DNA from: Cyanobacteria bacterium FACHB-DQ100
Lineage (GTDB): Bacteria > Cyanobacteriota > Cyanobacteriia > Leptolyngbyales > Leptolyngbyaceae
NCBI GenBank assembly: GCA_014695195.1
Contig: JACJNW010000028.1
Span: forward strand, 248,001 to 312,000
Direction: 5' to 3'
DNA length: 64,000 nucleotides
In this document: piece after piece, positions 328 to 21,314 of the stretch
Layout: every line of letters starts with the position of its first letter
How positions within the stretch are numbered: the first letter of the stretch is position 1
Notes under the pieces: generated by a model
The model's database searches: none
Told to the model about the DNA's origin: nothing
The model's input: the letters and a program-made list of their open reading frames with translations, nothing else
Made by a program: the position numbers and the translations under genes

Positions 328-1710
328 TTAACGATCGACGACCGGAGCCTCAACGATTCCCTTCGCCTCTAACTCTGCCGCAACCCGCAGCACTAGCGCT
401 TCTTGATATGGAGCCGCGATGATTTGGACACCGATCGGGAGTCCCGATCGCTTGACCGGAACCGAAACGATCGGCAACCCAATAAACGACAACGGCTGAG
501 TAAACATCCCCAAATTCGGACGCACTAACATTTCCTGCCCGTCTAAGGTCATCGTTTGCTGCCCGATGCGGGGTGCAACACAGGGAGTCGCCGGAGCCAA
601 AATAATATCCACTTCTTGAAAAATTTCGCGAACTTGATCGCGAAACCACTGCCGAAATCGCTGCGCTTGTACGTACCAGTGTCCCGGCACTAATGCCCCT
701 GCAAGCAGCCGATCGCGCACGGCAAAATCAAAATCCTGCGATCGGGTGCGTAGCTCCTCAAAATGTAAATTTGCTCCTTCCGTTGCCGTAATCACAAAGG
801 CTGCGGCTCGCGCTTGCCCTGGTGCGGGTAAGGTTATACGACGAGTCACGCCTAGCGCTTGTGCAACTTGTTCGACAGCAGCAAACACCTCTGGTTCGCC
901 GCCTCTGGCAAAATAGTCATCCGCGATCGCAATCCTCAATCCCTCACTACCTTTAGAAAGCTCCGGCAAGCAGAACTCCGGCGATCGCGCTGTACAAACC
1001 GGATCGCTCGGATCATGCCCCTGCATCACGTCAAACAAGAGGGCAAGATCTCGCACTGATCGGGCAAACGGGCCGACATGATCCAAGCTGCCCACAAACG
1101 GATAGGCTCCCGCTCTCGATAGCCGTCCATACGTTGGTTTCAGCCCAAAGATGCCACAAAACGACGCAGGAACCCGGATCGAACCGTTCGTATCAGACCC
1201 CAAGCTAAAGGGGACTAATCCGGCGGCGATCGCGGCGGCTGATCCTCCTGATGATCCGCCTGCGCTACGACCAAGATCGTGCGGATTGCGAGTTGCTCCG
1301 TAATGCGCGTTCTCGGTGGTGAAGCCGTAGGCAAATTCATCCATGTTGAGCGCTCCAACCAAGACGGCTCCCGCTTCCTTCAAGCGTTTGATTAACGCAG
1401 CATCTTGAGTGGCTGGAGGTTTCTCTGCATTAATTTTCGAGCCTGCGAAAGTTGGAATTCCGGCGACATCGAACAGATCTTTCACCGCAAAAGGAACACC
1501 TGCTAACGCACCTGGATCTTCTCCTGCGGCAATTTTTTGATCGATGCGATCGGCAGCTTCTAGCGCCGACTCGGATAAAACCGTCGTGAAGCAGTTGTAA
1601 GTTTGGTTGTGTTCTGCAATTTGAGCAAGGGCGGCGGCTGTCACCGATTTAGCGGCGACTTCTCGGTTGCGGACGACGATCGCGGTTTGAGTCGCGTCAG
1701 GAATGTTCAT
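328..1710 (-). CDS. AtzE-like amidase-signature hydrolase
   Basis: A 460-residue amidase-signature enzyme. The Ser-cisSer-Lys triad is visible as Lys77 (FAVKD), Ser153 in GGSSGGS and Ser177 in DTNGSIRVP, with spacing (76 and 24) as in the family. It resembles the AtzE branch, where AtzE with the small subunit AtzG deaminates 1-carboxybiuret, rather than the GatA subunit of the tRNA amidotransferase. The main support is context: its ATG overlaps the stop of a DUF4089/AtzG-like gene (ATGA overlap), and an allophanate-hydrolase C-terminal-like gene lies before that. Cytoplasmic. The true substrate is inferred; a general amidase or GatA-like role cannot be excluded from sequence alone. Confidence 0.8.
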
Positions 1711-1883
1711 GGTTCAAATACCGGGGCGGCTTCGATTTCTTCGGGTAACGGAAACTCTAGCACCAACTGCGCGACCGTGTGAATGCGTTCCATATTGGCA
1801 ACCACGCTCTCACGGTACTCCGCTGGAATCGGCAAACCAACCGCTTCAGCCATGATTTCGACAAATTCGTTTGCGTTGTTCAT
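1707..1883 (-). CDS. AtzG-like small subunit (DUF4089)
   Basis: A 58-residue acidic helical protein (MNNANEFVEIMAEAVGLPIP...) resembling DUF4089/AtzG, the short partner that binds and completes the AtzE amidase. It starts directly after the stop of the upstream gene with no spacer, and its TGA overlaps the ATG of the amidase by 4 bp, so the two should be translationally coupled and made in equal amounts. The motif-like centre EYRESVVANMERI and the following hydrophobic LVLEFPL segment match the remembered family layout. It is easily missed by gene callers because of its length. Assignment rests on family memory and on gene order. Confidence 0.75.
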   Translation of the reverse strand: MNNANEFVEIMAEAVGLPIPAEYRESVVANMERIHTVAQLVLEFPLPEEIEAAPVFEP

Positions 1884-2267
1884 TTACTGACTCTCGATAT
1901 ACGCTCTCCAACCACCGTACTGCGTGATTTCGACCTGACCTTCGCACAAAAACGGCTCACCCAAAACTCCTAAAACCTCTGTACCGTCTGCGAGCCGAAC
2001 TTTTCCAATACACAATCCAGGTGGCTCTTGCACCAATAAAGCTGCTAATCCACTTGCCGGAACCGCCCACACTTCAACCACGATCGCAACTCCGCCTTCT
2101 TTCACTTTCAGCATCGCCGGATGACGATCGTGAATCGACCAAATCCGATAGCTCGGTTCCGTCTGATCCTCACGCAAAAACTGGGCATTAAGCGCCAATA
2201 AATTCTGATTCAGTTCTAAGCCGCGCATCAATGTTCCATTGACCGCCAACTGTACCGCGCCTTCCAT
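1884..2267 (-). CDS. Allophanate hydrolase C-terminal-domain-like protein
   Basis: A 127-residue stand-alone protein that looks like the C-terminal domain of allophanate hydrolase (gamma-glutamylcyclotransferase-like fold), with the N-terminal LAVNGTLMRG strand-loop and a mostly beta body. In the full enzyme AtzF this domain follows the amidase domain and takes part in the second half of the reaction. Here it is detached and sits first in a tightly packed trio with the AtzG-like and AtzE-like genes (0-nt gap downstream, 10 nt after aroQ), implying a shared complex or pathway. No full-length allophanate hydrolase is in the window. The fold assignment is from memory; the enzymatic role is inferred. 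Confidence 0.65.
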   Translation of the reverse strand: MEGAVQLAVNGTLMRGLELNQNLLALNAQFLREDQTEPSYRIWSIHDRHPAMLKVKEGGVAIVVEVWAVPASGLAALLVQEPPGLCIGKVRLADGTEVLGVLGEPFLCEGQVEITQYGGWRAYIESQ

Positions 2268-5556: not shown

Positions 5557-6834
5557 TTACACTAACGCCGGAACTTGAGCACTGAGATGGGGGTAAAGCG
5601 GGAAGCGATCGCATAGTGCGGCAACGCGACGACGACAATCTTGAGCAACGCTCTCGTCTTCAGGGCTAAGTAAGCGATCGGCGATGATATTCGCAATCTC
5701 CGTGAATTCTGCTGTACCCATGCCGCGTGTGGTCATCGCGGGCGAACCCAGTCTCAGACCGCTCGTGACAAACGGAGAAGCGGGATCAAAGGGAACGGTG
5801 TTCTTGTTCGCGGTAATGTTCACGCCACTGACGAGCTGATCTGCCACTTTTCCGGTCATGTTGATCGATCGCAAATCCACTAGCATCAAATGGTTGTCAG
5901 TACCATCAGAAACTAGCTTAAAGCCGCGATTTTGAAGCTGAGTTGCCATTGCTCTTGCGTTCTCAATCACTTGACCTGAATAGGTCTTAAATTCCGGCTT
6001 CAGTGCTTCTCCAAAGGCGGCTGCTTTACCCGCAATCACATGCTCCAAGGGGCCGCCTTGGCTACCGGGGAAGACCGCTTTATCTAACTGCTTACCGAGT
6101 TCGGCATCGCGGGTGAGAATCAATCCACCTCTAGGCCCGCGTAGGGTTTTATGCGTGGTGGTCGTGACGACATCACAGTAGGGGATTGGACTCGGATGAT
6201 GTCCCGTTGCGACTAATCCTGCAATATGAGCGATGTCGGCTAACAAGTAGGCTCCGACTTCATCGGCGATCGCTCTAAATTTCTCGAACTCGATCACACG
6301 CGGATACGCTGAATAGCCGCAAATCAGCAGTTTCGGGCGATGTTCCAGTGCCAGTTCTCGAATTTGGTCATAGTCTAAGCGCTCGGTGGTTTGACTCACG
6401 CCGTAATGTTTAACGTTAAACCACTTACCAGAGACATTTACAGGCGATCCGTGGGTCAGGTGTCCACCGTGCGACAAATCCATGCCCATGATCGTGTCTC
6501 CGGGCTGGAGTAGCGTCAGAAACACGGCAAAGTTTGCTTGTGCGCCGGAGTGGGGCTGCACGTTTGCGTGTGCGGCTCCGAACAGTTCTTTTGCCCGATC
6601 GATTGCGAGTTGTTCAGCGCGATCGACAAATTCACAGCCACCGTAATAGCGTTTTGAAGGGAGACCTTCGGCGTACTTATTGGTCAAGACTGATCCTTGA
6701 GCCTCCATCACCGCAGGAGAGGTGAAGTTTTCGCTGGCAATCAGTTCTAGGTGATCTCGCTGGCGTTGCAGTTCTTGTTGCAGCATTTCAGCAAGAGCGG
6801 GATCGGACTGAGCAAGAAAATTTGAATGCGTCAC
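5557..6834 (-). CDS. glyA: Serine hydroxymethyltransferase
   Basis: A 425-residue pyridoxal-phosphate enzyme interconverting serine and glycine with tetrahydrofolate, supplying one-carbon units and closing the photorespiratory glycine route together with the glycine cleavage genes at 29-34 kb. The PLP lysine is Lys229 in [29 protein letters not shown] and [13 protein letters not shown] are family signatures. The start is GTG (6832-6834), with AAAGGAA about 9 nt upstream. The leader before it carries a long interrupted inverted repeat (see 6869-6954). Downstream lies a good intrinsic terminator. Confidence 0.96.
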
Positions 6835-8609: not shown

Positions 8610-8683
8610 TCAAATCGTTTGCTCGATCGCGAACTGTCTTATCTCAGTCCCCCAATCTGTAGCGAGTATTTAGAGATGTGGGA

Positions 8684-9229
8684 TTACTTCAACTTCTGCT
8701 TCACAAAGGTCAAGAGCTGACCCATCTGCTTCTTCAAGCCATCAATCTCAGCCTGCATTTTTGCAACTTTCTGATTCAGCGCTTCAATTTGAGCCGCTTC
8801 AGACGCGGTCGCAACTGGAGCCGCTTGCGGCGAAGGCAACGGCGCTGGACGGCGTTTCGCCTTTGCCATTGCAGCCTTGATTGCCTCAATCAGACCCTTC
8901 TGGTCAAACGGCTTCTGCACAAACTCAAAATACTCAAACGGCTCTTGTAGCTTCTCTGCTACTTCTTCTTTGCGCCCGGACATCAGCACCAAAGGAATTG
9001 TTTGCAGTTCAGCGGTACCCTGGATTTGCTGATAAACTTCCCAACCGCTCATTCGAGGGAGCAGGAAATCCAGCATGATCAGCGTCGGACGCTCCTGCCG
9101 AATTAAGTTAATTCCTTGCAAACCATCCTTGGCTTCCAACACTTCAAAGTTACCTTTCGGCAACATATCTCGCACCATGTTCCGAATCACGGCGCTATCA
9201 TCGATGACTATGACTTTGTGACTTGCCAC
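8684..9229 (-). CDS. Response regulator with C-terminal coiled coil
   Basis: A 181-residue protein. Residues 1-120 form a CheY-like receiver with acidic pocket Asp10/Asp11, phosphoacceptor Asp54 (MLDFLLP), Ser85 in LMSGRKEE and the Lys of FVQKPF. A proline/alanine linker (about 128-144) is followed by a helical, probably coiled-coil tail (IEALNQKVAKMQAEIDGLKK) likely used for dimerisation or partner binding. There is no DNA-binding output domain, so it should act through protein contacts, as in the PatA/PilG-type regulators of cyanobacterial motility or patterning. No kinase is adjacent, and the partner cannot be predicted. Confidence 0.88.
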   Translation of the reverse strand: MASHKVIVIDDSAVIRNMVRDMLPKGNFEVLEAKDGLQGINLIRQERPTLIMLDFLLPRMSGWEVYQQIQGTAELQTIPLVLMSGRKEEVAEKLQEPFEYFEFVQKPFDQKGLIEAIKAAMAKAKRRPAPLPSPQAAPVATASEAAQIEALNQKVAKMQAEIDGLKKQMGQLLTFVKQKLK

Positions 9230-9527
9230 AACTGAACTCCTCTAGGGTGATCTAGAAAATCGCAATTGAATCGGGGAAGATTCGCCGGAAAACGATGCAA
9301 TAGAAACCTCACTGCACTCCTAATCGAATCATTACGGAAAGAAGCAGGGTTGCAATCCTGCAAACTCCGTGCCAAATGTTACTCGATTTGGTGAAATACG
9401 GACGGCTTTAGTACCCGACTCCGCTGAATTGCTCCCTTATAATGGCGATAGGTCAAAAAACTTCATATTTTTTGCTGCTGGCTTGCGCCAACTTTAGAAC
9501 GAACTGACCCTTAGCATTCCCTTGTTT
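9230..9527. other. Divergent promoter region, response regulator/lipA
   Basis: About 300 bp without a gene. TATAAT at 9438-9443 on the plus strand is a consensus -10 element in a good place to drive lipA, but I do not see a matching -35. Nothing else is recognisable. Confidence 0.4.
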
Positions 9528-10454
9528 ATGTCACCCCAAACGAATCGATCTGCAATTTCTGAGCGTCGTGCGATCGTCTCTGCCCTGCCTGATTGGCTAC
9601 GCCGTTCGATCGGGAGTGCCAGTGAAATTTCGACGGTGCAGCAAATTATTAAACAGCGGCAGATTCACACGATTTGTGAGGAAGGGCGCTGCCCCAATCG
9701 GGGAGAATGCTATGCCCAAAAGACTGCCACGTTTTTACTGATGGGGCCTACCTGTACGCGATCGTGCGCGTTCTGCCAGGTGGATAAAGGACACACACCG
9801 ATGCCGCTCGACACGGAGGAACCCCGAAAAGTTGCGGAATCGGTACAACTTCTGGGATTGCGATATGTCGTGCTGACCTCAGTAGCGCGAGATGATTTAG
9901 CTGATCAAGGCGCGGGTTGGTTTGCGGAAACGATGCGGCAGATTCGCGTGCTCAATCCACAAACTCAAATCGAGGTCTTGACTCCGGATTTCTGGGGCGG
10001 ACGGCAAGACGGCACTTCACCTGAAGCCTTACAGCAGGAGCGAATCGCGACGATCGTGGCTGAAAAGCCCGCTTGCTACAATCACAACATCGAAACGATC
10101 AAGCGGCTACAGGCTCCGGTGCGACGTGGTGCTAAGTACGATCGCACTCTCCGAGTCTTGCAAACAGTGAAGGAACTCGATCCCACGATCCCGACAAAAT
10201 CTGGCTTGATGTTGGGACATGGAGAAATGGAAGCAGAAGTGATCGAAACGCTGCAAGATCTAAGAACGGTCGGCTGCGATCGCGTCACGATCGGGCAGTA
10301 TATGCGTCCATCGCTAGAGCATCTCCCAGTGCAGAAATATTGGCATCCTGACGAATTTGAGCGTTTAGGCAAGATTGCACAAGACATGGGGTTTTCTCAT
10401 GTGCGATCGGCTCCGTTAGTTCGCAGTTCATACCATGCTGGCGAGGAAGCCTAA
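9528..10454 (+). CDS. lipA: Lipoyl synthase
   Basis: A radical-SAM enzyme of about 308 residues that inserts two sulfurs into octanoyl groups on lipoyl domains; GcvH at 30.4 kb is one expected target. Both cysteine clusters are present: the auxiliary cluster [12 protein letters not shown] and the radical-SAM motif [16 protein letters not shown] near the C-terminus is the RSSY motif supplying the serine ligand of the auxiliary cluster. The ATG at 9528 gives a normal N-terminus; an in-frame TTG two codons earlier is possible, and no clear Shine-Dalgarno decides. Cyanobacteria often have two LipA copies; only one is in this window. Confidence 0.94.
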
Positions 10455-17392: not shown

Positions 17393-17462
17393 GTATCGTA
17401 AGGCACGAATTGCCCTCAGAAAAGTGTGATAAAGCTGACACACAAACAATCTTGAGGGCAGG
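17393..17462 (+). promoter_or_regulatory. Structured leader before formamidase
   Basis: In the 72-nt gap before formamidase TGCCCTCA (17411-17418) can pair with TGAGGGCA (17453-17460), and GTGTG with CACAC inside it. The 3' arm adjoins the AGGATG that should serve as ribosome-binding site. GTATCGTAAGGCAC (17393-17406) is an NtcA-like GTA-N8-TAC site with one mismatch. Both readings are tentative. Confidence 0.4.
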
Positions 17463-18488
17463 ATGATGAGTGGACTAGGTGGCTTAAACAAGACTCCAAA
17501 CGGTGTGGTTTTGGGGTTGGTGCAGTTGCAGCTTCCGAACGTGGTAACACCCGATGATCTGGCGACACAGACCGATCTCATTTGCCAAATGGTCGGCAAA
17601 GCGCGACGAAATATGCCGACTATGGATCTGGTGGTCTTCCCTGAATACTCGCTGCATGGCTTGTCGATGGACACCAATCCAGAAATCATGTGCCGCTTAG
17701 ACGGAAAAGAAGTCCAAGCGTTTCAGAAAGCTTGCCGGGACAATCACATCTGGGGATGCTTTTCGATCATGGAATACAACCCCCACGGCAATCCCTATAA
17801 CAGCGGTATCATCATCGACGACACCGGAGAACTGAAACTGTATTACCGCAAGCTGCATCCTTGGGTTCCAGTCGAACCGTGGGAGCCTGGAAACTTGGGA
17901 ATTCCTGTGTGTGAAGGCCCGAACGGCAGCACGATCGCGCTCATCATTTGTCACGATGGGATGTTCCCGGAAATGGCGCGTGAATGTGCCTACAAAGGTG
18001 CAGAAATCATAATTCGTACCGCAGGCTACACCGCTCCAATCCGTCACTCCTGGCAAGTCACCAATCAAGCGAACGCGTTTTGCAATCTGATGTACACTGC
18101 CTCGGTGTGTATGTGCGGCACCGATGGCACGTTTGACTCGATGGGTGAAGGTATGTTTGTGAACTTCGACGGCGCGCCGCTGGTGATGGGTAGCCATCGC
18201 CCAGATGAGATCATCACCGCAGAGTTACGCCCGGATCTGGTGCGTGAAGCCCGGAAGCATTGGAGCGTTGAAAATAATATCTATCAGTTCGGGCATCGCG
18301 GCTACGTGGCGGTAAAAGGTGGAGCGCAAGACTGTCCTTACACTTATATGCAAGATTTAGTCAATGGCAGTTATCGCTTGCCTTGGGAAGACGAAGTGAT
18401 TTACACCGACGGAACCTCTTGCGGATTCGCGACTCCGACACGATCGTACCGTGGCGAAGAACTCCCGACCTCTGTGACCGGAGGTTAA
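17463..18488 (+). CDS. Formamidase (nitrilase superfamily)
   Basis: A 341-residue C-N hydrolase closely matching the formamidase AmiF layout: formamide to formate and ammonia, cytoplasmic, homo-oligomeric. The catalytic triad is Glu61 (FPEYS), Lys130 (YYRKLHPW) and Cys163 (ICHDGM), almost the same numbering as in characterised Ami[35 protein letters not shown] and [17 protein letters not shown] are family-specific stretches. It is followed 2 nt later by the biuret-hydrolase gene and then a BMP-type binding protein, so the cluster probably recovers ammonia from small amides. Aliphatic amidase is the alternative, but formamidase fits better. Confidence 0.9.
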
Positions 18489-18490
18489 GC

Positions 18491-19177
18491 ATGATGTTCG
18501 TCGAGGCTGATCCGTATCCCTATCCGTTTAATGGCGATCTGCGTCCTGAAAACACGGCGCTGATTGTGATTGATATGCAGACGGACTTCTGTGGCAAGGG
18601 CGGGTATGTTGACAAAATGGGCTATGATTTGTCGCTGACCCGCGCTCCGATCGAACCGATCCGCAATCTGTTGACGATCCTGCGATCGCTCAACTACACG
18701 ATTATTCACACCCGCGAAGGACACCGCCCGGATTTGTCAGATCTACCGGAGAATAAACGCTGGCGATCGCAGCAGATCGGCGCTGGTATTGGTGATCCAG
18801 GGCCTTGTGGAAGAATTCTGGTGCGGGGCGAACCTGGATGGGAAATCATTCCTGAACTGGCACCCTTGCCCGGAGAAGTGATCATCGACAAACCCGGAAA
18901 AGGATCGTTTTATGCAACCGATCTGGATTTGATTCTGAAACGCAAGAACATTCAGAATTTGATTCTCACCGGAATTACAACCGATGTCTGTGTACACACC
19001 ACGATGAGAGATGCCAACGATCGCGGCTACGAATGCTTGCTGCTGTCTGATTGTACTGGCGCAACCGATTATGGAAACTACCTTGCAGCGCTCAAGATGA
19101 TCAAAATGCAGGGCGGCGTCTTTGGGGCAGTCTCTGACTCGATCGCGCTCATCACCGCCCTAAAAGCAGGATTGTGA
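18491..19177 (+). CDS. biuH: Biuret hydrolase-like cysteine hydrolase
   Basis: A 228-residue isochorismatase-fold cysteine hydrolase. Asp28 (VIDMQTDF), Lys134 (IDKPGKGSF) and Cys167 (TTDVC) match the Asp-Lys-Cys triad of characterised biuret hydrolase BiuH with a constant offset of eight residues, and long stretches such as [16 protein letters not shown] and [18 protein letters not shown] agree with my memory of the rhizobial enzyme. The product would be allophanate plus ammonia. The start is the first of two ATGs, with GGAGG about 7 nt upstream overlapping the formamidase end. Other ureide hydrolases of this fold remain possible. Cotranscription with formamidase is nearly certain. Confidence 0.8.
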
Positions 19178-19252
19178 CAGATTATACAATTTGATCAAAG
19201 GAAACAGACTTCAATCGATCGCGTTTATTAGTATCCGAAAAAGGAATCAACG

Positions 19253-20452
19253 ATGAGCAAGAATGATGAGCGTCATTCACGAGTTTCCCGCCGTCAGGTT
19301 GTGCGGGGGCTCTTGGCGACCGGAGCCTTTGGCGCAACCTCGAAACTCTGGACAGGATGTACGCCGGCTAACAATACAAACACCGCAACAACGACGACAG
19401 GTACAAGTCCAGCGGCAGGAAAAGAGCTTGCCATGGGGTTCATCTACGTCGGACCTAAAGATGACTTCGGCTATAATCAGGCGCACTCTCAGGGCAAAGA
19501 AGGGTTGAAAGCCCTGAATGTTAAAACGGTCGATCAAGCCAGCGTTCCTGAAACTACCGAAGTCCAAGAAGCCATGCGGAACATGATCGAGCAAGATAAA
19601 GCTACGGTCTTGTTTCCAACGTCATTTGGCTACTTCGATCCGCATATTCTCAAACTTGCCGCCGATTACCCTGAAGTGCAGTTCTTCCACTGTGGCGGAC
19701 TCTATGATGCCAATAAACACCCAAAAAATGTGGGAAGCTACTTCGGCTACATCGACGAAGCCCAATACGTTGCGGGCGTAGTCGCTGGGCACATGAGCAA
19801 AACAGGCAAGCTCGGTTTTGTGGCAGCAAAACCGATTCCACAAGTGCTTCGCAACATCAACAGCTTTACGTTAGGCGCACGTAGCATCAAGCCGAACATT
19901 ACAACTCAGGTGATTTTCACGGGGGATTGGTCGCTGCCGGTCAAAGAAGCTGAAGCCACAAACAGCTTGGTTGACCAAGGCGCAGATGTGATTACCTGCC
20001 ATGTGGACAGTCCAAAAGTAGTGATGGAAACCGCAGAAAAACGGGGCGTGTTTACGTCGGGCTATCACGCCAACCAGGCATCGCTGGCACCGAAGGGCTA
20101 TCTGACGGGTGCGGAGTGGGATTGGACAAAGGTGTATAGCGAATACACCAAGATGATTCAAGAAGGTAAGACGCTGATGAATGGTGGGATTCCGCATTTG
20201 CTTAGAGGCGGATACAAGGATGGATTCGTGAAGATCTCATCCTTTGGTTCTGCGGTGTCTGATGTTGCGAAAAAAGATGCAGATGCAGCGATCGCGAAAA
20301 TGCAGTCGGGTTCACTGGTGATTTATAAAGGTGGACTGAAAGATAACACCGGAAAAACAGTCGTTCCAGCAGGTAAAGATTACGGCGCAACTGCGATCGA
20401 GCTTGAATCGATGAACTGGCTGGTTGAAGGTGTAGTCGGCAAAACCGCCTAG
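19253..20452 (+). CDS. BMP-family solute-binding lipoprotein, Tat-exported
   Basis: A 399-residue periplasmic binding protein of the BMP/PnrA (Med) family. The N-terminus has a twin-arginine motif (SRRQVVRG, Arg13-Arg14), a hydrophobic stretch and a lipobox ending at Cys36 (LWTGC), so it should be exported folded by Tat and lipid-anchored. A Thr-rich linker leads to the binding domain (LAMGFIYVGPKDDFGYNQAH). BMP proteins usually bind nucleosides, but next to formamidase and biuret hydrolase a small amide or ureide ligand is likely. No permease or ATPase gene follows. AAGGA precedes the ATG. Confidence 0.88.
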   Translation: MSKNDERHSRVSRRQVVRGLLATGAFGATSKLWTGCTPANNTNTATTTTGTSPAAGKELAMGFIYVGPKDDFGYNQAHSQGKEGLKALNVKTVDQASVPETTEVQEAMRNMIEQDKATVLFPTSFGYFDPHILKLAADYPEVQFFHCGGLYDANKHPKNVGSYFGYIDEAQYVAGVVAGHMSKTGKLGFVAAKPIPQVLRNINSFTLGARSIKPNITTQVIFTGDWSLPVKEAEATNSLVDQGADVITCHVDSPKVVMETAEKRGVFTSGYHANQASLAPKGYLTGAEWDWTKVYSEYTKMIQEGKTLMNGGIPHLLRGGYKDGFVKISSFGSAVSDVAKKDADAAIAKMQSGSLVIYKGGLKDNTGKTVVPAGKDYGATAIELESMNWLVEGVVGKTA

Positions 20453-20460
20453 AAATTCAC

Positions 20461-20498
20461 TGCCACCGCTAAACTCGTAGACGGGATTAGCGGTGGCA
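20461..20498 (+). terminator. 12-bp hairpin between BMP and kinase-like genes
   Basis: TGCCACCGCTAA (20461-20472) and TTAGCGGTGGCA (20487-20498) form a perfect 12-bp stem with a 14-nt loop. There is no T-run; the 3' arm contains the GTG that could start the next gene. It could protect the upstream mRNA or control the downstream start. Confidence 0.55.
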
Positions 20499-20501
20499 AG
20501 C

Positions 20502-21314
20502 ATGAACTGGATTTATTTAATTGCAGGATTGAGCCTCGGTTTTGTCGGTGGATGGTTGGCCCGAAAGGCTCCTCAGAATAATCAGGAGCTTGAACTAGCG
20601 TATCGATCGCTGCTCGAACTCAGCCAATTCAAAGCGGGATTTCTGGCGCGAACGTCTCATGAATTGCGATCGCCCCTCAACGGCATGATCGGCGCACATC
20701 AGCTCATTCTTGCGGACTTGTGTGAATCACCTGAAGAAGAACGCGAATTTATTGCCCAGGCAAATGAGTCTGCACTCAAGCTAGTCAAGCTACTCGATGA
20801 GGTTATTCATATTTCTAAAACTGAATACGGAACAGGCAAATTAGACCTACAACCTGTTTCTATTTCTGATGTGTTGGATAATGTATATTCTTTAACGCAT
20901 CTATTATCGGAAAATCGGAATCTACCCTTTTATTTAGCCTCACCTGATCCTGACCTCAAGGCTATTGCCGATCGCAAATCGCTTTTGCAAGTGTTAACCA
21001 GTTTGATTAGCAGCGCGATCGCGACGATGCAGGAAGGCTCGATTAAACTTTCGGCACACGCAGATGCGAATTTTGTGTATATCGATTTGGAAGACGAACG
21101 CCCGATTGAGGTTTGGCAAGAAGCGATCGACTTGCTCAAACGAGAAGCGCCACTCGATTTGGAACCGCCCTCGTTAGGATTTAGTCTATTGCTGAATCAG
21201 AATCTCATGGAGTTTATGAAGGGTCGGTTAGAATTGGTCAAGCTGCCAATGAACTCAGCAGAAACTATCACTCAACTCCGATGCACTCTGCCTCGAAATG
21301 CGGTTCAATCATAA
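20502..21314 (+). CDS. Histidine-kinase-like protein with degenerate ATP site
   Basis: About 270 residues. An N-terminal hydrophobic helix (about 3-20) anchors it. The dimerisation/H-box FLARTSHELRSPLNGMIG with His53 is intact. The ATPase part is not: the N-box position reads QVLTSLISSAIAT without the usual asparagines, the G1 box is replaced by YIDLEDERPIEVW, and no GxGL loop is seen. It is probably unable to autophosphorylate and may instead act as a phosphoacceptor or scaffold. The start could also be GTG 20493. The next gene is a Ser/Thr kinase 21 nt away, so the pair may be cotranscribed. Confidence 0.75.
   Translation: MNWIYLIAGLSLGFVGGWLARKAPQNNQELELAYRSLLELSQFKAGFLARTSHELRSPLNGMIGAHQLILADLCESPEEEREFIAQANESALKLVKLLDEVIHISKTEYGTGKLDLQPVSISDVLDNVYSLTHLLSENRNLPFYLASPDPDLKAIADRKSLLQVLTSLISSAIATMQEGSIKLSAHADANFVYIDLEDERPIEVWQEAIDLLKREAPLDLEPPSLGFSLLLNQNLMEFMKGRLELVKLPMNSAETITQLRCTLPRNAVQS

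Follow-up and report, generated by a model that had tools for sequence, protein, structure and literature searches.

What does a cyanobacterium do with a compact unit of three genes that encode a formamidase, a biuret hydrolase (BiuH) and a solute-binding protein (SBP)? The question is raised by a 64,000-nucleotide stretch of the genome of Cyanobacteria bacterium FACHB-DQ100 (assembly GCA_014695195.1, contig JACJNW010000028.1, positions 248,001 to 312,000), which we call the window and from whose first nucleotide all window coordinates are counted. A preliminary description had read the unit as a dedicated, self-contained route for salvaging ammonia from formamide and biuret. We found that its enzyme calls stood but that this framing was too narrow, because the same genes are part of a larger, known kind of locus that comprises a BMP-type ABC importer and TrtA, commonly joined by AtzD or AtzF. 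The window genes are likely the cyanobacterial, dispersed form of this BiuH/TrtA ureide-utilization operon, with importer, triuret/biuret and allophanate steps as proposed below. The sequence itself shows which genes these are, their active-site residues, the conservation of their neighborhood and their spread over several contigs; what the enzymes act on, which importer serves the SBP and what becomes of allophanate are inferred. The three open reading frames were found where they had been placed:

17463–18488, plus strand: formamidase of the AmiF family (341 amino acids)
18491–19177, plus strand: biuret amidohydrolase BiuH (228 amino acids)
19253–20452, plus strand: SBP of the BMP/PnrA family, a relative of AtzT (399 amino acids)

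The gaps between them, 2 nt from formamidase to BiuH and 75 nt from BiuH to the SBP, were also as described. All three genes are under constraint: comparison with six congeners yielded 16 values of the ratio of nonsynonymous to synonymous change (dN/dS), all within 0.012–0.065; one SBP comparison yielded none, one congener lacks the formamidase, and synonymous change was near saturation in most comparisons.

The identification of the 228-amino-acid protein as BiuH is strongly supported by its sequence. It scored 419.7 bits against the NCBI equivalog model for biuret hydrolase (NF050097, cut-off 370), its best solved match was the BiuH structure 6azo (E = 3.9e-124), and it was 78% identical to two Rhizobium johnstonii sequences, including that of strain 3841, which bears out the biuret hydrolase call by the comparison with rhizobial BiuH that the preliminary description had suggested. 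The Asp28-Lys134-Cys167 triad is present as reported, and all 17 of the positions that we checked against active-site residues named in passages of PMC5806882 and PMC7948467 agree with BiuH, among them Asp36, Lys142 and Cys175, the substrate contacts Lys145, Thr171 and Gln215, and the neighboring Tyr47, Tyr53 and Val218 (strain 3841 numbering, which is the window position plus 8). In a tree of 93 rows the protein grouped with 34 cyanobacterial and six other rows (five Verrucomicrobiota and one SAR324; support 100/86), separately from 50 proteobacterial rows; the internal branch order of this tree is poorly resolved, its outgroup branches are long and its bootstrap had not settled. BiuH would convert biuret to allophanate and ammonia.

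To place the unit among its relatives we surveyed named loci for the best 80 of at least 561 BiuH relatives, counting genes in the loci that extend about 9 kb to either side (37 non-cyanobacterial and 11 cyanobacterial; 32 shorter loci were left out). The 37 non-cyanobacterial loci contained an SBP in 35 cases, both permeases in 35, an ATPase in 35, TrtA in 33, formamidase in 18, AtzF in 18 and AtzD in 9; for the 11 cyanobacterial loci the counts were SBP 6, permeases 6, ATPase 9, TrtA 10, formamidase 2, AtzF 0 and AtzD 0. The annotated R. johnstonii plasmid pRlX3 (L064) carries, in this order, a BMP SBP, two permeases, formamidase, BiuH, AtzD, an ATPase, a cysteine hydrolase and a cupin, and tblastn recovered the same row, with TrtA in the place of the cysteine hydrolase, on plasmid pRL10 of R. 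johnstonii (leguminosarum) strain 3841 (L135), a locus that passages of PMC5806882 characterize in part, for AtzD and BiuH. The window's genome resembles pRL10 in having a BMP SBP, two permeases, a formamidase directly before BiuH, an ATPase and a TrtA-like hydrolase; it differs in that AtzD was not found, the importer and the TrtA-like gene are on other contigs, and the SBP follows BiuH and carries a lipoprotein-type Cys. Passages of PMC12625717 note this larger kind of locus for nitrifiers, whose biuH-bmpA-nupABC contigs likewise combine BiuH with a BMP ABC importer. The company that BiuH keeps also varies: on an annotated Pantoea plasmid it is accompanied instead by a cytosine permease and an amidase, and an MFS transporter (PF13347) lies directly upstream of BiuH at 8613–10151 of locus L052, a stretch in which no SBP or permease of an ABC importer was seen. 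A Cupin_7-type protein stands between ATPase and TrtA in three loci (L048 9583–9969, L050 1520–1870 and L055 9885–10238; the Pfam scan covered L048).

The TrtA-like gene of the window's genome, which, like the importer genes, the preliminary description had missed, is on contig C34 (L043). Its product matched TrtA (6xix) at 4.9e-85 against 1.3e-57 for biuret hydrolase (6xjm), and, read off the alignment, it has the TrtA residue at all six of the positions that separate TrtA from BiuH according to passages of PMC7948467 (Phe35, Asn41, Ala134, Glu160, Tyr187 and Ile205). It is a predicted triuret hydrolase, which would convert triuret to 1-carboxybiuret, with decarboxylation to biuret following. 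This TrtA-like and BiuH pair with its separating residues recalls the triuret pathway of Herbaspirillum sp. BH-1 (TrtA, TrtB, BiuH and AtzF; passages of PMC7948467), from which the window's genome differs in having no AtzF over the cut-off. Within the genus, six of the seven other genomes searched have BiuH, five of them as formamidase-BiuH-SBP and the sixth as BiuH-SBP, and none of the five TrtA loci examined held a marker gene besides TrtA. In other genera of the family, eight of nine TrtA loci had the order SBP-permease-permease-ATPase-TrtA (one SBP being in two pieces) and the ninth had no SBP, in a set picked after BMP matches near TrtA had been seen in several. BiuH passed its cut-off in 27 of the 42 genomes of the family, and in 10 of 292 genomes sampled across the cyanobacteria; a TrtA-like gene, here a match of about 237–261 bits to the BiuH model, was present in 31 of the 42. 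A TrtA-like gene adjoins a 2OG-Fe(II) oxygenase at 6614–8275 of L057, in a genome (G177) with no BiuH over the cut-off.

What the unit imports depends on its SBP, which matched PF02608 at 136.9 bits and had as its sole NCBIfam match a B6 transporter model, at 39.8 bits against a cut-off of 400. Its N terminus is of the Tat/lipoprotein type, as had been described, with twin Arg at 13–14 and Cys36. A Cys after the twin Arg was present in all 16 cyanobacterial rows (two of which appear to be one genome) and in none of 49 others, so that lipid anchoring of this protein looks like a trait of the cyanobacteria; RRQ was seen by eye in 16 of the 16, and a stricter Tat pattern in 12 of the 16 and in 59 of all 65 rows. 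The closest solved relative is AtzT of Pseudomonas sp. ADP (6pi5, E = 2e-58), which shares the SBP family, the Tat signal and a Tyr/Trp sandwich in the pocket and which, according to passages of PMC6834077, binds guanine, with an affinity of about 110 nM, and 2-hydroxyatrazine. Because of this relationship a planar heterocycle is as possible a ligand as an open-chain ureide.

A single numbering offset fitted all nine of the named AtzT pocket residues and gave Y-S-F-Q-Q-N-W-H-D for the window SBP versus Y-S-F-T-E-N-W-N-N for AtzT. The aromatic sandwich is kept (Tyr74 and Trp226), whereas four of the nine positions are changed (T139Q, E165Q, N218H and N220D), guanine contacts among them: the AtzT ligand contacts Glu165, Asn218 and Asn220 are replaced by Gln197, His250 and Asp252. 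Among 66 rows of BiuH-linked SBPs (the window's included; one genome seems to contribute two rows, and some of the rows are closely related), S97, F98, N169, W194, H218 and D220 were invariant, and 62 had Gln in place of AtzT Glu165. The TrtA-linked SBPs of the family had the pocket W-S-F-Q-P-N-W-H-D in seven of seven cases, and this genome's remaining two BMP SBPs each differed from the window SBP at six of the nine positions. Because the pocket is changed and yet conserved, its ligand is probably common to phyla and may well differ from the guanine of AtzT. The two pocket types, YSFQQNWHD and WSFQPNWHD, make the cargo of these BMP-family importers testable.

These observations bear on the alternative in which the SBP, like AtzT, binds purine bases and the enzymes clear products of purine oxidation, namely triuret, biuret and perhaps formamide. 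This alternative can draw on AtzT being the closest solved relative and on triuret and cyanuric acid being obtainable by oxidation of uric acid (passages of PMC7948467). The four pocket substitutions speak against it, being common to nearly all BiuH-linked SBPs, and we give it a minor though real chance of being right. Under the dispersed-operon reading, the exported SBP would capture a small, planar ligand, either a ureide or a heterocycle resembling one, and pass it to a BMP-type ABC importer of two permeases and one ATPase encoded on contig C23. All the parts of such an importer are in the genome: the SBP on contig C28, and on C23 (L047) two BPD_transp_2 permeases and an ATPase with two ABC_tran stretches, with no SBP nearby. 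The C23 genes were 65–78% identical to the importers of BiuH operons, versus 26–41% to the other BMP-type genes of the genome.

The 341-amino-acid protein exceeded the formamidase equivalog cut-off (NF009803, 577.6 versus 406 bits) and fell short of that for aliphatic amidase (235 versus 427 bits), its best solved match was the formamidase 5g3o (E = 2e-107), and the reported Glu61-Lys130-Cys163 triad is present, all in support of the original call. Across all 80 surveyed loci, the formamidase gene, where there was one, was the immediate upstream neighbor of BiuH, in the same orientation, in 18 of 21 non-cyanobacterial and four of four cyanobacterial cases. We regard it as a conserved BiuH partner of unproven role that, by its family, is predicted to convert formamide to formate and ammonia; it is an unexplained regular member of a locus whose core enzymes are already solved, and in the texts that we found on cyanuric acid, formamidase and BiuH this enzyme was not mentioned.

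Its regular presence favors a route devoted to formamide and biuret alone, in which the SBP would bind a small amide. Among 20 further BiuH loci of the Leptolyngbyaceae (from 26 such genomes besides this one), in which no importer permease was seen, 16 had formamidase ahead of BiuH, and in the phylum sample its cut-off was passed by seven of the 292 genomes, comprising four of the 10 with BiuH (in one of which, G170, the two genes are on different contigs) versus three of the 282 without. Against such a narrow route stand the TrtA-like gene in 26 of the 27 BiuH genomes of the family and AtzD between BiuH and the ATPase in Rhizobium, because of which the gene set appears to handle more than two compounds, and also the aromatic sandwich kept in the SBP; we judge it unlikely. 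A fifth formamidase genome with a trace of BiuH, G215, has the latter interrupted: at 9230–12244 of L058 both BiuH and an allophanate hydrolase C-terminal domain gene are broken and the formamidase is open, as in a decaying operon.

An Asp-Lys-Cys triad is common to the isochorismatase-like hydrolase family. Passages of PMC5806882 describe it in some members. That the 228-amino-acid protein is another such hydrolase (RutB, TrtA or carbamoylsarcosine amidase) and misnamed is nevertheless very improbable, given 117.2 bits against the RutB model (cut-off 378), matches to N-carbamoylsarcosine amidohydrolases at E of about 1e-9 to 1e-7 only, the BiuH residue at all six positions that separate it from TrtA (Tyr, Tyr, Ser, Asp, Thr and Val, read off the alignment) and three TrtA rows that stood apart in the tree, on long branches.

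Several points weigh against the dispersed-operon reading itself. The SBP is on C28 and its presumed permeases are on C23, so that we pair them by exclusion, and true distances between genes cannot be read from draft contigs. In favor of the pairing, two of the genome's three BMP SBPs have an ATPase beside them together with one permease or two, and the window's does not. No AtzF exceeded the TIGR02713 cut-off in this genome (best 238.5 of 511 bits), its C-terminal domain being a separate gene. Nor was there any match in this genome to PF09663, the model for cyanuric acid hydrolase (AtzD/TrzD), and we rejected cyanuric acid as a starting compound here by the known enzyme. The absences in the survey are themselves weak, as 14 of its 25 cyanobacterial BiuH loci were incomplete. 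Some cyanobacteria may start from cyanuric acid, because among 14 genomes tested AtzD was found in G005 (two open copies), G193 (one) and G170 (one, in two pieces); in G008 a remnant of AtzD lies about 5 kb from BiuH. AtzF passed its cut-off in two of the 14 (G060 and G185).

In function this is thus a ureide locus of a known kind, which in this genome is dispersed, with AtzD not found and no AtzF over the cut-off. A second unit, on the minus strand at 328–2267, some 15 kb away and missed by the preliminary description, may fill the last gap:

1884–2267, minus strand: stand-alone allophanate hydrolase C-terminal domain (AH_C)
1707–1883, minus strand: AtzG-like small subunit
328–1710, minus strand: AtzE-family amidase

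AH_C matched PF21986 at 140.2 bits (cut-off 27) and the small subunit PF13318 at 74.5 bits (cut-off 24), with only 25.5 of 70 bits for HpxX (NF033624); the amidase exceeded the AtzE cut-offs (NF006631, 748.1 versus 461; TIGR02715, 718.6 versus 425.75) and reached 214.2 of 511 bits for allophanate hydrolase (TIGR02713). The atzG start directly follows the AH_C stop, and the AtzE start overlaps the atzG stop by 4 nt. Beyond AH_C, at 2278–2718, is a gene that we take to be AroQ.

Defining the AH_C class as matches of at least 125 bits, a line drawn after the scores had been seen, we found it in all 32 genomes of the family that have BiuH, a TrtA-like gene or both, versus three of the 10 that have neither (Fisher 4e-6), and in the phylum sample in 10 of 10 BiuH genomes versus five of 282 others, p-values that are only indicative because related genomes are not independent. 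The order AH_C-AtzG-AtzE recurred in 20 of 20 further loci of the family (from 35 genomes with the class, taken without knowledge of neighbors), to which the window and G319 (L199; AtzE and AH_C seen) add two. Counter-cases to this link are AH_C within the BiuH operon in G289, beside AtzF in G060 and fused to AtzF in G185. AtzE as a strict partner of BiuH was rejected: 37 of the 282 genomes without BiuH pass its cut-off, and three of the 10 with BiuH fail it, these three still having the AH_C class. The window's genome has a second, more divergent AH_C paralogue that scored 96.5 bits (G000, C23:167588–167950); paralogues of this second class also occur in genomes without BiuH.

We tentatively suggest, with more doubt than confidence, that AH_C-AtzG-AtzE is a three-subunit split allophanate hydrolase, in which AtzE with AtzG would deaminate allophanate and free AH_C would decarboxylate the product. 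In these cyanobacteria the three subunits would then stand in for two-domain AtzF in the last step of the triuret-biuret pathway. The known AtzE reaction is on 1-carboxybiuret (passages of PMC6219798), which is the product of TrtA (passages of PMC7948467), so that AH_C could instead be the decarboxylase of the 1-carboxybiuret branch. Allophanate could also end as urea, since urease alpha was present in all 16 genomes tested; it would thus be finished by AH_C-AtzG-AtzE, via urea and urease, or both. In passages of PMC12625717, most archaeal biuH-bmpA-nupABC contigs have a GatA-like amidase and no collocated AtzF; here the genes are instead AtzG-AtzE and a stand-alone AH_C, and the same passages set the GatA-like protein apart from AtzE. 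The unit is a testable candidate for the missing allophanate hydrolase. If the dispersed-operon reading is right, the use of biuret and triuret, described for soil proteobacteria and nitrifiers, would extend to primary producers, for which impurities of urea fertilizer or debris of oxidized purines are suggested as nitrogen sources. Our literature search linking biuret, triuret or biuret hydrolase with cyanobacteria found nothing on topic, though a taxonomic study of biuret degradation might mention them.

Upstream of the formamidase lie two elements that may bear on control:

17393–17406, plus strand: GTAN8CAC element, weakly similar to an NtcA box
17412–17459, plus strand: leader inverted repeat GCCCTCA-N34-TGAGGGC around a GATAAA −10-like hexamer, its right arm near the formamidase start

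The label NtcA box, and the consensus behind it, are ones that we assume. GTAN8[T/C]AC occurred at about the same place in all six genus members with a formamidase (the window's genome among them), two of which had exact GTAN8TAC, and in none of nine formamidase heads from other genera of the family. Exact GTAN8TAC was found within 250 nt upstream of four of 22 SBP-first operons, once inside a gene (chance expectation about 0.03 per region; the position of a 23rd operon could not be fixed). We rejected general NtcA control on these last two counts and keep NtcA-like control of the formamidase head as a hint at the level of the genus. The inverted repeat, with its 7-nt arms, was the single match in the window, with none in 100 shuffles; it aligned in six genus members, its arms kept with small changes, and none of 14 formamidase heads from other genera had both arms together. 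It is a candidate operator or RNA hairpin. Control by a riboswitch was rejected, as no Rfam family reached threshold in the whole window and the one match near the leader was at chance level. At the other end of the unit, 40 nt past the SBP gene, a HisKA protein is encoded at 20493–21314, in which a Pfam scan found no ATPase domain; a homologue follows the SBP in five of six congeners.

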